Shown here: positions 16,094-20,565 of the stretch, piece by piece
How positions within the stretch are numbered: the stretch's first letter is position 1
Layout of the letters: the number at the start of each line of letters is the position of its first letter
From: Thermaerobacter marianensis DSM 12885
GTDB lineage: Bacteria; Bacillota; Sulfobacillia; Thermaerobacterales; Thermaerobacteraceae
DNA: 64,000 nucleotides
NCBI RefSeq assembly: GCF_000184705.1
Contig: NC_014831.1
Coordinates: 434,001 to 498,000 of the forward strand
Direction: 5' to 3'
Notes under the pieces: generated by a model
The model's database searches: none
What the model saw: the letters and a program-made list of their open reading frames with translations, nothing else
What the model was told of the DNA's origin: nothing
Position numbers and translations under genes: made by a program

Positions 16094-17194
16094 TCACGTG
16101 GTAAGAAAGACCGGGATCCCGTCGGGATCGCGGAGGACCCAGCCACGGGGTGAGGGCTCGGCCTCGTGCCCTGCGGCCCGGGCGCGGTCCAGCACCGCCT
16201 TCAGGTCCGCTGCGGTGGGTAGCTGGATGGTGAACCCTGCCAGGCCGGCGGCTCCGGGCGGCGGCGGGGGGGCGCCTTCGCCCGCCCAGACGTTGAGGCC
16301 CAGGTGATGGTGGTATCCGCCGGCCGCCACGAAGAGGGCGCCGGGGAAGTCCCGCTGGGTGACCTCGAAGCCCAGTACCCCGCAGTAGAACGCCTCGACG
16401 GTCTGCAGCCGGGAGACCTGCAGGTGGACGTGCCCGACCACGGGCCCCCGGGGAGGGTCCCCGGCCCCGTCCGGGCCGGCGTCCGGCCGGGTTCCTCCGG
16501 CGGCGGCGACCAGGTCCTCCAGGTCCAGCGGCGCGGTGTACATGGCGATCCCACCGTTCCGGCGCGGCCACTGGTCCCGCGGCCGGTCGGCGTAGAGCTC
16601 GAGGCCGTTGCCTTCGGGGTCGGCCAGGTAGATGGCCTCGCTCACGCCGTGATCGGCGAAGCCCTGAAAGCGCCACCGCCCCTGCACCAGTCGCAGGAAG
16701 GCGCGGGCCAGGTCCGCCCGGCCGGGGTAGAGCAGGGCGACGTGGTACAGGCCCGTGGTGCGCGGCGGGCGCGGCGGGGCGCCGGGCGACTCTTCGAGGC
16801 AGAGGAGGGGAGGGCCGCCGGCTGCAGCGGCGAGCCAGACCGGCGGGTGGGACGACCCGTTCCCAGGGGCGCTCGCAACCGGGCGGGGTGGGCCGGCGGG
16901 GCTCTGGCTGCCTTCGGGAACCCCTGCGTCCCCTGTGCGGCCGAGGCCCCCCGCGTGGTCCGCTGTCCCGACGCGGCCCGCGTCCCCGGCAGCCGCGCCC
17001 CCGGGCGTGCCCGCCCCTCCTTGGGACGCGGCCCCGGCCGTGGAGCCGGCCACCCCGGGAGCCGGGCTGGGCACGAGACCCAGAAGATCGCGGTAGAACG
17101 GCAGCACGCGGGCCAGCTGGCGGACCCGCAGGTACACCGGCCCGAGCCGGATGTCGGCAGGCAATGCGGCCTGCGGCGTTGGGGAATGGTTCAT
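16094..17194 (-). CDS. two-domain VOC/glyoxalase-family protein
   Basis: A 366-residue protein of two vicinal-oxygen-chelate halves, resembling CatE/YfiE-type extradiol dioxygenase-like proteins. The first half begins LGPVYLRVRQLARVLPFYRDLLGL and has the metal-type histidine in TGLYHVALL and a glutamate in GNGLELYADRP. The second has VGHVHLQVSRLQTVEAFYCGVLGF and GGYHHHLGLNVW. Residues about 45-125 are an Ala/Gly/Pro-rich insertion within domain one. The ATG at 17194 is fixed by GGAGGTGCGACG. The reaction is unknown. Confidence 0.85.
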   Translation of the reverse strand: MNHSPTPQAALPADIRLGPVYLRVRQLARVLPFYRDLLGLVPSPAPGVAGSTAGAASQGGAGTPGGAAAGDAGRVGTADHAGGLGRTGDAGVPEGSQSPAGPPRPVASAPGNGSSHPPVWLAAAAGGPPLLCLEESPGAPPRPPRTTGLYHVALLYPGRADLARAFLRLVQGRWRFQGFADHGVSEAIYLADPEGNGLELYADRPRDQWPRRNGGIAMYTAPLDLEDLVAAAGGTRPDAGPDGAGDPPRGPVVGHVHLQVSRLQTVEAFYCGVLGFEVTQRDFPGALFVAAGGYHHHLGLNVWAGEGAPPPPPGAAGLAGFTIQLPTAADLKAVLDRARAAGHEAEPSPRGWVLRDPDGIPVFLTT

Positions 17195-17425
17195 CGTCGC
17201 ACCTCCGGCTCCATTGTCACCCAGCGCTCCTGGTTTGGCGACGGTCGACGACGGCCCCGCCGATGGCGGGTGCGCTGACGGGAGGGGCGTTTGCGTTCCG
17301 GGTCGAATGCCCCAAGGTGGCCGGCCCGTCCAACGGTGGACCGGCTTGGCCCGGCGACGCCGTCGCCCGCAGACCCGACCGGGCCGGCGTCCGAAGGTGT
17401 CCATGACCAAAGGTGGTGCTCGGTC

Positions 17426-19255
17426 TTGCCGACGGCTTCCTCCCGGTACACCCCGCGCCAGCGGGCCCTGCTGGCCCGCTACGTCAGCAACCTCGACGGC
17501 AACGTCTACGCCATCTACAACCTGCCCGAAGAGGTCGTGGCAGTGATCTTCGCCTATGTGAGCCGGAGCCCGCGCAGCTTCCGGGAGAACCTGCTGCGCC
17601 TGATGGAGGATCCGGAACTGGACCTGCTGGCGGGGCTCCCGGCCCAGCCCCAGGCGGTCCCGGCGCCGGGTTTAGACCAGGTGGCCGCGGCGGCGGAACC
17701 GGATGCGGATGGCGGGCCGGCCGGAGTTGCCGTGCTCCCCCCGGGCGCGGGGGCCGGGGACTTGGCCGGGAGCGCGGCGCCGGAGGCGGCCGCGGCCGAG
17801 GGAGCGGCCACCGCCGCCGGGTCCGTCGCCATCGCGGCGGAGAAGGCCCGCAAGTTCCACGAGAAGTGGGTCGTCGGCTACGGCCACGCGTCGGTGGCCG
17901 AGCTGGCCAAGGCGGCGGTGGGCATCGAGGGCATCTCCCGCCTGGCCAGCGCGCGGCTGGAGACGGCCAACCCCTGGCTTTCCTTCATCGAGTACAGCCA
18001 GCGGTACCAGATGCCCGCCCGCGGCGCCTACGTGGTGCCGCCCGAGCTGGAAGCGGCCGGCGACCCGGAGCTGCTGGCCGCGTTCCACCGCGTCCAGGAC
18101 GTGACCTACGGGGCGTACGAGGAGCTCTTCCGCGGGCTGGTCGCGTACCTGGAGCGGGCCGAACCGGCGCGCGCCGGCGAGACGCCCAAGGCGCGCCGCA
18201 GCCGCCTGGAGAAACAAGCCTTCGAGGATGCGCGCTATGCCCTTACCCTGGCGGTGCAGACGAACCTGGGGATGGTGGGGAACGGGCGCGCGCTGCGGGA
18301 CGCCATCGTGCGGCTGCTGTCGGATCCCTACGAGGAGACGACGCGCCTGGCCCTCGCCATCCGGGCCGAGGTGACCAAGGTCCTCCCCACGCTGGTTCGA
18401 TACGCCGAACCCAACCCGCGCATCCGCGCCGGGGAAGCGGCCGTGGCCCGCGGCGTGGACGAAGCCCTGCGCCGGTACCGGGACGTCCGGGCGGTGGCCA
18501 GCGACCCGGTGCTCTTGCTGGACTGGACCGGCCGGGGTGCGGGGAACGGGGCGCCGGCGGGAGGTCCGGGACCGGTTCCGCCCGCGTCGGACGGTGGCAG
18601 GCGGGCCCCGGCGCCCACCACCCCCGACGAGCAGGCGGCCCTGGACGTGATCCTGGGCGCCTGGTTGGCCGAGTTCGGATCGGGTGGCTGGCCCGAGACG
18701 GCCGACGTGCTGGCGCGCATGACGCCGGCGGAGAAGATCGCCCTCTACGCGCGCGCCGTCGAGGGGCTGGGACCCCATGACCCGCCGCCCGACGCGCTGA
18801 AGTTCGTCCGGTACCGGGTGGAGTTCACCGTTTCCGAGGCCAACTGGCACCAGCTCCTGCGCCACTCCCGGCGCATGCACTTCGCCGCCCAAGCGCCGGG
18901 CATCGAGCACGGCATCACCGTGCCGCCGCGGGTGCAGGAAGCCGGGCTGGCGCCGGTGCTGATGCGCGCGGTGGACGCGGCGGAGCGCCTGTTCTTCCGG
19001 CTGGTCCGGGACGGCTTGCCCCTGGCGGCCCACTACGTGGTGACCAACGCCCACCGGCGCCGGGTACAGGCCGAGTTCGACCTGTGGCAGCTGTATCACC
19101 TCATCACCCTGCGCGGAAAGCCCGAGGCGCAGTGGGACATCCGGCGGACGGTCCACGAGCTGGCGCGCCGGGTGATGGCGGTCCACCCGAACCTGGTGCG
19201 CTGCGTGCCGCGGCTGATGGCGGTGTTGGAGGGGCCTGGAGCGGGGCGGCCGTAG
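17426..19255 (+). CDS. thyX: long ThyX-like protein with two ThyX domains
   Basis: A 609-residue member of the flavin-dependent thymidylate synthase superfamily, about twice the usual 220-260 residues, with two ThyX-like halves. The first has GYGHASVAELAKA and FIEYSQRYQMP; the second has NWHQLLRHSRRMHF and NAHRRRVQAEFDLWQLYHL. The canonical RHRxxS motif before the ExSxRY segment is not seen in the first half. Ala/Gly-rich inserts occupy residues about 68-135 and 370-399. The TTG at 17426 follows AAAGGTGG; earlier in-frame codons give no homologous residues. Whether it makes dTMP is open. Confidence 0.8.
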   Translation: MPTASSRYTPRQRALLARYVSNLDGNVYAIYNLPEEVVAVIFAYVSRSPRSFRENLLRLMEDPELDLLAGLPAQPQAVPAPGLDQVAAAAEPDADGGPAGVAVLPPGAGAGDLAGSAAPEAAAAEGAATAAGSVAIAAEKARKFHEKWVVGYGHASVAELAKAAVGIEGISRLASARLETANPWLSFIEYSQRYQMPARGAYVVPPELEAAGDPELLAAFHRVQDVTYGAYEELFRGLVAYLERAEPARAGETPKARRSRLEKQAFEDARYALTLAVQTNLGMVGNGRALRDAIVRLLSDPYEETTRLALAIRAEVTKVLPTLVRYAEPNPRIRAGEAAVARGVDEALRRYRDVRAVASDPVLLLDWTGRGAGNGAPAGGPGPVPPASDGGRRAPAPTTPDEQAALDVILGAWLAEFGSGGWPETADVLARMTPAEKIALYARAVEGLGPHDPPPDALKFVRYRVEFTVSEANWHQLLRHSRRMHFAAQAPGIEHGITVPPRVQEAGLAPVLMRAVDAAERLFFRLVRDGLPLAAHYVVTNAHRRRVQAEFDLWQLYHLITLRGKPEAQWDIRRTVHELARRVMAVHPNLVRCVPRLMAVLEGPGAGRP

Positions 19256-19366: not shown

Positions 19367-19450
19367 GCCGGGGTGTCGGAACCGGTAGACGAGGCGGACT
19401 CAAAATCCGTTGGGCGCGAGCCCGTGCGGGTTCGAATCCCGCCCCCGGCA
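19367..19450 (+). tRNA. tRNA-Leu, anticodon CAA
   Basis: The acceptor arm GCCGGGG (19367-19373) pairs with CCCCGGC (19443-19449), with discriminator A at 19450. The anticodon arm is CGGA, loop CTCAAAA, TCCG, giving anticodon CAA for UUG codons. A long variable arm (TGGGCGCGAGCCC region) marks a class II tRNA, and the T-arm GGGTTCGAATCCC is standard. CCA is not encoded: CCG follows the discriminator. Confidence 0.96.
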
Positions 19451-19480
19451 CCGTCGTTACCAGGCGTGACGCCTTGCGCG

Positions 19481-19545: not shown

Positions 19546-19668
19546 CCGCCGGATGGCTGGCCGGCCGGACGGTGGCCGGGTCGGCCCTTCGCGGGCCGGG
19601 GGGCCGCCATCCACCGGTGAGGGGTGCAGCCGGCGGACCGGCAGACCGGCGGACAGGAGGGACAGGGG

Positions 19669-20565
19669 ATGAAGGAGACCCGGGCGTGGGCGCTACCCGG
19701 CATCGTGGGACTGGTGCTGGCGCTGGCGCTGGGTGGGGCCGCGGTGTACCTGTTCATCCGCGGGGTGTCGGCGCTGGAGAGCGGTGCGGTGCCGGTGCTA
19801 GGCCACGGCGGCGTCGACGTGACGGCCGGTGTCCTCGCGCTGATCGCGGCCATCATCGTCGCGTCGGGCATGTTGATCGTCCAGCCCAACTACTCCCGGT
19901 CGGTGGTGTTCCTGGGCCGGTACCTGGGGACCCTGCGGGAGCCCGGCTGGTGGTGGACGGTGCCCTTGACCAGCCAGCCGGCCGTCTCCCTGCGGGTGCG
20001 CAACTTCGAGAGCGAGAAGATCAAGGTCAACGACCTGCGGGGGAACCCGATCCAGATCGCCGCCGTGGTGGTCTGGCGGGTGGTGGATGCGGCCCGCGCC
20101 CTGTTCGAGGTCGACAAGTACGAAGAGTTCGTCAAGATCCAGAGCGAGACGGCCCTGCGCCACATCGCCAGCCAGTACCCCTACGACACCTTCGAGGATC
20201 ACAGCGCGACCTCGCTGCGCGAGAACACCGACATCGTGTCCCAGGCTCTGGCCCAGGAGCTGCAGGAGCGCCTGGCGGTGGCCGGGGTCGAGGTGCTGGA
20301 CGCCCGCCTGACCCACCTGGCCTACGCGCCGGAGATCGCCCACGCCATGCTGCAACGGCAGCAGGCTGAGGCGGTGGTGGCGGCCCGGGCGAAGATCGTG
20401 GAAGGGGCCGTGGGCATGGTGCAGATGGCCCTGGCGGAACTGCAGCGCCACGGCGTGGTGGAACTGGACGACGAGCGCCGGGCCGCCATGATCAACAACC
20501 TGATGGTGGCCATCGTCGGGGAGCGGGCGGCGCAACCGGTGATCAACACCGGCACGCTGTACTGA
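19669..20565 (+). CDS. SPFH/Band 7 membrane protein
   Basis: A 298-residue protein with two N-terminal transmembrane helices (residues about 8-28 and 45-68), then an SPFH domain. NYSRSVVFLGRYLGTLREPG and VSLRVRNFESEKIKVNDLRGNPI lead into the WRVVDAARALFEVDKYEEFVKIQSE block, followed by a helical stretch. Family members scaffold membrane microdomains or regulate proteases; the specific role is unknown. The ATG at 19669 follows CAGGAGGGACAGGGG. It lies in one direction with the downstream ribbon-helix-helix gene. Confidence 0.92.
   Translation: MKETRAWALPGIVGLVLALALGGAAVYLFIRGVSALESGAVPVLGHGGVDVTAGVLALIAAIIVASGMLIVQPNYSRSVVFLGRYLGTLREPGWWWTVPLTSQPAVSLRVRNFESEKIKVNDLRGNPIQIAAVVVWRVVDAARALFEVDKYEEFVKIQSETALRHIASQYPYDTFEDHSATSLRENTDIVSQALAQELQERLAVAGVEVLDARLTHLAYAPEIAHAMLQRQQAEAVVAARAKIVEGAVGMVQMALAELQRHGVVELDDERRAAMINNLMVAIVGERAAQPVINTGTLY

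Follow-up and report, generated by a model that had tools for sequence, protein, structure and literature searches.

A Fused Double-Length ThyX with Complementary Active-Site Residues in Its Two Halves, the Probable Thymidylate Synthase of Thermaerobacter marianensis

The window analyzed here, 64,000 nucleotides of Thermaerobacter marianensis DSM 12885 (contig NC_014831.1, positions 434,001 to 498,000), holds at 17,426 to 19,255 a double-length ThyX gene whose two halves, the N-half and the C-half, carry different parts of the ThyX active site. The features of this gene are given below in window positions. Residue numbers in family counts are those of Mycobacterium tuberculosis (Mtb) ThyX, with roles transferred via sequence alignment; A, B and C denote the subunit of the Mtb tetramer that contributes the residue. 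Counts over 66 refer to the window protein and 65 other loci from bacteria and archaea with open reading frames (ORFs) of at least 440 residues and the same two-half architecture, a recurrence showing that the double ThyX is not a chance product. Counts over 40 refer to alignment A1, comprising the window protein and 39 of the 65 other long ORFs, selected ahead of alignment to represent a broad spread; with the other 26, added later, the totals rise to 66 rows, in which some genes are present twice (for instance L007/L036).

17426..19255, + strand: double-length ThyX gene; TTG start, 609 codons plus stop; the genome's only PF02511 locus
17465..17623, + strand: N-terminal segment of the N-half, residues 14-66; conserved, with Y28, E36, A43, S46 and R47 invariant across 40 sequences
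17624..17818, + strand: Ala/Pro/Gly-rich insert, residues 67-131; disordered, fast evolving, long only in this genus
17819..18460, + strand: N-half ThyX core, residues 132-345; from the PF02511 match, the N-half profile and the model
17882..17893, + strand: GHAS, residues 153-156, equivalents of Mtb H69 and S71 (flavin adenine dinucleotide (FAD) side, B role); H and S kept in 66/66
17966..17974, + strand: ANP, residues 181-183, at the canonical RHR position, lost in the N-half; R95 or H96 in 0/66, R97 in 42/66
17990..18007, + strand: EYSQRY, residues 189-194, the ExSxRY loop predicted to bind deoxyuridine monophosphate (dUMP), with tyrosine lid (C role); E, S, R and Y each in 66/66
18233..18235, + strand: R270, equivalent of Mtb R172; N-half 66/66, C-half 0/40
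18281..18289, + strand: NGR, residues 286-288, equivalents of Mtb N188 and R190 (FAD, B role); R in 66/66, N in 63/66
18314..18316, + strand: L297, where catalytic R199 (TM0449 R174) would stand; R missing from the N-half, kept in 0/66
18461..18616, + strand: linker, residues 346-397, including a low-complexity stretch; from the model and the nonsynonymous divergence (dN)
18497..19246, + strand: C-half, complete ThyX fold, residues 358-607; from VIA-align to 5ios_D, Thermotoga maritima ThyX
18860..18871, + strand: RHSR, residues 479-482, RHR with one inserted residue (A role); R95 and R97 equivalents in 66/66, H96 in 65/66
19112..19114, + strand: R563, equivalent of Mtb R199 and TM0449 R174 (A role); 66/66

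PF02511 (Thy1/ThyX) is the sole Pfam family in the 609-residue protein, with a whole-protein E value of 2.5e-41 and a score of 142 bits against a curated cut-off of 24.8, and each half by itself exceeds this cut-off in the genome search (6.0e-30 and 1.7e-10). The initial annotation, made from the letters of the window, had described two fused ThyX-like halves with low-complexity inserts, and its frame and coordinates are confirmed. The PF02511 match falls into two separate stretches, and residues 67-131 and about 370-397 are of low complexity. Both motifs that it singled out are present, with ANPWLSFIEYSQRY at residues 181-194, where canonical ThyX has RHRxxSxxExSxRY, and LLRHSRR at residues 477-483. 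Its statement that the protein is without the canonical RHR holds for the first half but not for the second, in which RH-S-R amounts to a one-residue expansion of RHR.

Across the long-form set the active-site residues are divided in a consistent manner. H69, S71, the glutamate at 103, S105, R107, Y108, R172 and R190 are each present in the N-half of all 66 rows, and R95, H96 and R199 are each absent from it in all 66. The C-half carries R95, R97 and R199 in 66/66 and H96 in 65/66 rows, with S71 and R172 in none of the 40 rows of A1. In the window protein, the N-half retains GHxS (H69, S71), R87, ExSxRY, R172, N188 and R190, with ANP replacing RHR and L297 standing at R199; the C-half retains R95, H96 and R97, with a serine inserted after H96, as well as R199, and has neither GHxS nor R87, ExSxRY, R172 or R190. 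An extra residue inside the C-half RHR occurs in 17 of the 40 rows, other lineages having plain RHR there. With RH.R confined to the C-half and ExSxRY to the N-half in 66/66, no contiguous RHRxxSxxExSxRY exists within one domain. The roles are moreover interleaved along the chain, R190 and R199 being 9 residues apart and assigned to opposite halves, so that neither a single deletion nor one degenerate block explains the split. As aligned, neither half thus holds both residue sets, and the halves keep complementary parts of the dUMP/FAD site. Because each keeps active-site parts lost by the other, the two halves of long ThyX probably must cooperate for activity.

The same rule is followed by all 22 readable copies found in IMG/VR (N-half S71, S105, R107, R172 and R190; C-half R95, H96, R97 and R199), with two exceptions elsewhere in the motif, one Y108 to A and one E103 to Q. 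A control alignment was made of 27 single-domain ThyX genes, 25 from 24 genomes of the same class and the rest from carriers of the two-domain form, with one gene entered twice (L022, L084). Most of these hold RHR, SxRY and the R199 position together in one chain. Two single-domain ThyX proteins, L097 (G014) and L103 (Paenibacillus genome G175), have KYV in place of RHR before NExSxRY.

The fold of both halves is that of ThyX. Profiles built from the 40 N-halves and the 40 C-halves each match all of the solved ThyX structures, with best E values of 9.7e-19 and 1.2e-11, respectively. An AlphaFold model of the whole chain has a mean predicted local distance difference test score (pLDDT) of 83.8 and a predicted template modeling score (pTM) of 0.83, with pLDDT below 50 at residues 89-118, within the insert. 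Residues 358-607 of the C-half superpose on 5ios_D, T. maritima ThyX, with a VIA-align Z of 16.7 and a root-mean-square deviation of 2.3 over 195 residues. The VIA-align rows of the whole-chain model showed the C-half only; Foldseek rows of about 183 columns and 28-30% identity to Mtb ThyX fit the N-half, which also aligns by sequence. The predicted model of a Chloroflexi long-form relative (pLDDT 90.4, pTM 0.86) likewise shows a confident two-half fold. No chain among the PDB search matches for ThyX exceeds 270 residues, and apparently no long form has therefore been solved.

The genome, scanned as one contig of 2,844,696 bases, contains by whole-genome profile search no PF00303 (ThyA) and no PF02511 locus beyond the two halves of the long gene. 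The search for another thymidylate synthase thus returned only the long ThyX gene, extending genome-wide the claim of the initial annotation that no other lies in the window. PF00186 dihydrofolate reductase (DHFR) was not found in the genome profile search either; its absence is usual in the company of ThyX. We considered 151 genomes of the source bacterium's class, in which the long form was called by the C-half profile. It is present in 51, all scoring at least 122 bits with the next best at 84.8; a partial match (G139, 66 bits, 407-residue frame) was excluded from the 51 and is also absent from the thyA list. None of the 51 carries thyA, against 13 of the 22 genomes without any ThyX (Fisher p 6e-9); among the 129 genomes with any ThyX, thyA occurs in 2.

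A further check covered 48 of 60 loci, after exclusion of L072, L077-L080 and L082 as fragments or short forms, of L028 and L029 as copies of other loci, and of L061, L064, L066 and L068. Omitting L040, and with two loci sharing one genome, this gave 46 genomes to be checked for thyA and short thyX, two of which also belong to the class sample, judged from coordinates. A full-length thyA is found in two (G159, Oceanobacillus; G175, Paenibacillus), partial and low-scoring PF00303 matches only in four, and a separate short thyX in three (G153, G168, G175). In G175 the long form lies on a contig listed as viral by IMG/VR, which would explain its redundancy with thyA and short thyX. By these searches the long form is the sole recognizable thymidylate synthase gene here and in most carrier genomes.

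Carriers of the two-half architecture among the Bacillota include Thermaerobacter relatives, Symbiobacterium, Thermoactinomycetaceae, Paenibacillus and Oceanobacillus; further ones belong to Chloroflexota, Woesearchaeota, Aenigmatarchaeota, Micrarchaeota, Zixiibacteriota and Patescibacteria. In IMG/VR, 23 long-form loci were found, on contigs whose lengths range from 26 to 529 kb, and 22 of these loci are readable across both halves. Long-form ThyX is seen on many viral-class contigs of about 90-530 kb (L104-L124), and large phages probably carry it. The IMG/VR locus L111 and the Paenibacillus sp. TCA20 contig L050 are identical DNA, so that some viral-class copies may be prophages or misclassified. 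Among the phage records of INPHARED, none reaches 80% coverage of the long ThyX protein. A tree was built from 38 N-halves, 38 C-halves and 26 short forms (L005, L006 and L022 excluded). N-halves and C-halves form separate clades in it, 100/100 each, in a topology with long branches and a bootstrap that is not fully settled. Two such clades are what a single ancient duplication and fusion would be expected to leave. Within the genus, dN is 0.04-0.10 in the two cores, against 0.21-0.46 in the insert and 0.29-0.33 in the linker. Both cores are under purifying selection, with a ratio of nonsynonymous to synonymous divergence (dN/dS) of about 0.10-0.17, and insert and linker are much looser. We ruled out a degenerate pseudogene because purifying selection acts on the cores but not on the disordered stretches.

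Some further ThyX genes deserve mention. In Oceanobacillus profundus (L033:3821-6550) the long form has 910 residues, and its GHxS motif is itself interrupted by an insert some 350 residues long; the insert has Cys at its start, HISGN at its end and weak matches to intein-bearing proteins, and resembles an intein located at the FAD site. In G089 (C235:11994-13538) a ThyX match is broken at RHR, its two profile parts lying about 1 kb from each other within a single open frame, which is possibly an intein in a short ThyX. The archaeon isolate S5B6_HD70 (G174) has two different long-form ThyX genes (L049 and L070) in one small genome.

The tested neighbors of the long ThyX gene, listed below, provide no thymidylate operon, and gene context is uninformative.

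16094-17410, - strand: two-domain glyoxalase-like protein
19367-19452, + strand: tRNA-Leu (CAA), directly 3' of the long ThyX gene
19624-20565, + strand: SPFH/Band 7 protein

A ThyX site built by three monomers is the subject for which a 2004 paper by Leduc et al. in PNAS is reportedly cited. In site 1 of Mtb ThyX (PMC6514825), RHR 95-97 and R199 come from subunit A, S71 and R190 from B, and R87, Q103, S105, R107 and Y108 from C. In ThyX of the chlorella virus PBCV-1, Gln-75 and Arg-182 are contributed by one monomer and Ser-88 and Gln-89 by the other, and the ThyX tetramer has 222 symmetry (PMC3498832). Transferred to the long form, these roles place every A-role residue in the C-half and those of roles B and C in the N-half, as would suit a fused pseudo-tetramer. 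ThyX would have been duplicated and the copies fused, after which the active-site residues were divided between the halves. The assembly would consist of two such chains, forming a pseudo-tetramer that resembles the homotetramer of ordinary ThyX in shape. In each working site, a C-half would supply RH(S)R and R563, facing the FAD phosphates, the flavin ring and the dUMP uracil, one N-half would supply GHxS and R288 for FAD, and another N-half ExSxRY for dUMP together with the tyrosine lid. From the subunit roles in Mtb, the 222 symmetry and the presence of two N- and two C-halves we infer two complete and two vestigial sites: with C-halves at A and D and N-halves at B and C, sites 1 and 4 would be complete, and sites 2 and 3 would be without the A-, B- and C-role groups.

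We put at about 80% the probability that the long protein is the cell's flavin-dependent thymidylate synthase, a duplicated and fused ThyX with a divided site, working as a pseudo-tetramer with two active sites. Thymidylate synthesis by the pooled halves is the best explanation for the residue partition, the absence of thyA in the class sample and the purifying selection on the cores taken together. The split active site that the initial annotation had offered as one of two readings is borne out by the complementary residues across the 66 long forms and by the lack of a second recognizable synthase gene, and no support was found here for its alternative of another function. It had also set against its own reading the combination of a canonical thyX or thyA elsewhere with FAD-site loss, and the opposite is seen: none was found elsewhere, and the FAD-site residues are present in the pooled halves. 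Overall its interpretation is partly supported. Several observations weigh against this assignment. The long protein scores 67.4 with the NCBIfam ThyX equivalog TIGR02170, below the cut-off of 87.9. A thymidine kinase gene (PF00265) is present in the genome, making thymidine salvage possible. A full thyA or a short thyX stands beside the long form in 4 of the 46 further genomes. The partition is imperfect, with N-half R87 retained in 48/66 rows and with C-half R190 and N-half R97 each also retained in 42/66, though not in the window protein. The extra residue in the RHR of the window protein may affect FAD binding, and the residue roles behind the mechanism are carried over by alignment.

The low equivalog score and the kinase gene could also be read as signs that the fused protein is another flavin- or nucleotide-binding protein, for example a methylase of uridine monophosphate (UMP) or dUMP, or else a dispensable atypical ThyX in a cell living on salvaged thymidine. 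The UMP/dUMP methylase PolB is among the structural matches of the long ThyX model, and atypical ThyX do exist, the PDB title of Corynebacterium glutamicum ThyX reading 'not required for thymidylate biosynthesis'. C. glutamicum, however, has thyA, whereas the source genome and 51/51 long-form genomes of the class are without it; every catalytic residue is present with the halves pooled; no biosynthetic cluster appears among the neighbors tested; and a sizable fraction of long-form genomes from several phyla would each need external thymidine. We thus regard this explanation as improbable. We consider it most improbable that catalysis belongs to a single half, with the other as a pseudo-enzyme of structural or regulatory function and with sites formed from like halves only. 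This reading could draw on the strong divergence of the halves from canonical ThyX, greater for the C-half by the E values to the best solved structure given above, but N-halves are without R95, H96 and R199 in 66/66 and C-halves without ExSxRY, S71 and R172. Neither half alone having the full residue set, a like-half site would miss essential groups in all members, and functional loss of one half was ruled out on the same grounds. It is unlikely, though less so, that the sites are shared in some other arrangement, such as a pseudo-dimer formed by a single chain or a larger assembly in which one or four sites work, as residues not cleanly partitioned (C-half R190, N-half R97) might suggest. 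Placing the C-halves at A and D of the 222 tetramer fills two sites and empties two with no residues left over, and as far as we can judge this is the only way to distribute two N- and two C-halves that surrounds a C-half RHR with S71/R190 and ExSxRY both coming from N-halves. Beyond the assignment of the long protein as the cell's thymidylate synthase, we think it rather likely that a site made by three identical subunits was turned once, anciently, into an obligate two-part, half-of-sites ThyX through reciprocal loss in fused duplicates, with two sites complete and two fully dismantled, and that this form spread over Bacillota, Chloroflexota, DPANN archaea, Zixiibacteria and large phages, usually as the only thymidylate synthase.

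ThyX is an antibiotic target and the textbook case of an active site formed from three identical subunits. With each contribution in its own domain, the long form makes subunit roles testable residue by residue, without mutating all four sites, and offers a clean example of subfunctionalization inside a homo-oligomer. The inserted RHR residue of the Bacillota branch tests the tolerance of that motif. For annotation, the NCBIfam ThyX model scores below its cut-off proteins that are apparently the only thymidylate synthase in most genomes examined.

As to known systems, open-license papers yielded no account of a split active site, of how widely it occurs or of the two-plus-two prediction, most subscription journals lying outside this search; searches of PMC9931769 and PMC5954106 gave nothing on a duplicated or fused ThyX, and PMC4913046 showed none of the ThyX residue terms. 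Valas and Bourne (2009, PMC3224940) remarked that Chloroflexi have a duplicated ThyX, "not characterized". That protein has the same architecture, and the Chloroflexi rows of A1, themselves long-form relatives, divide the residues in the same way; residue partition, archaeal and phage copies and mechanism are not mentioned in the part of their account consulted. The atypical ThyX of C. glutamicum (3fnn, 3ge9), the top Foldseek match of the long ThyX model, shares with it a divergent ThyX fold, but is a single domain with RHR and SQRF in one chain and a host that has thyA. Each half of the long form has the fold of canonical ThyX, or flavin-dependent thymidylate synthase (FDTS) (PF02511, TIGR02170; Mtb 3gwc, T. 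maritima TM0449 1o26). As in canonical ThyX, all key FAD and dUMP residues are held, here by the pooled halves, and the gene is its genome's sole thymidylate synthase candidate in the absence of PF00186. Canonical ThyX, however, is a homotetramer of chains of about 220-260 residues, each with both residue sets, giving four equivalent sites, whereas the long form is one chain of two halves with complementary sets and two predicted working sites. Duplication of ThyX being already known, the long form represents a variant, widespread but little studied, of an established enzyme.
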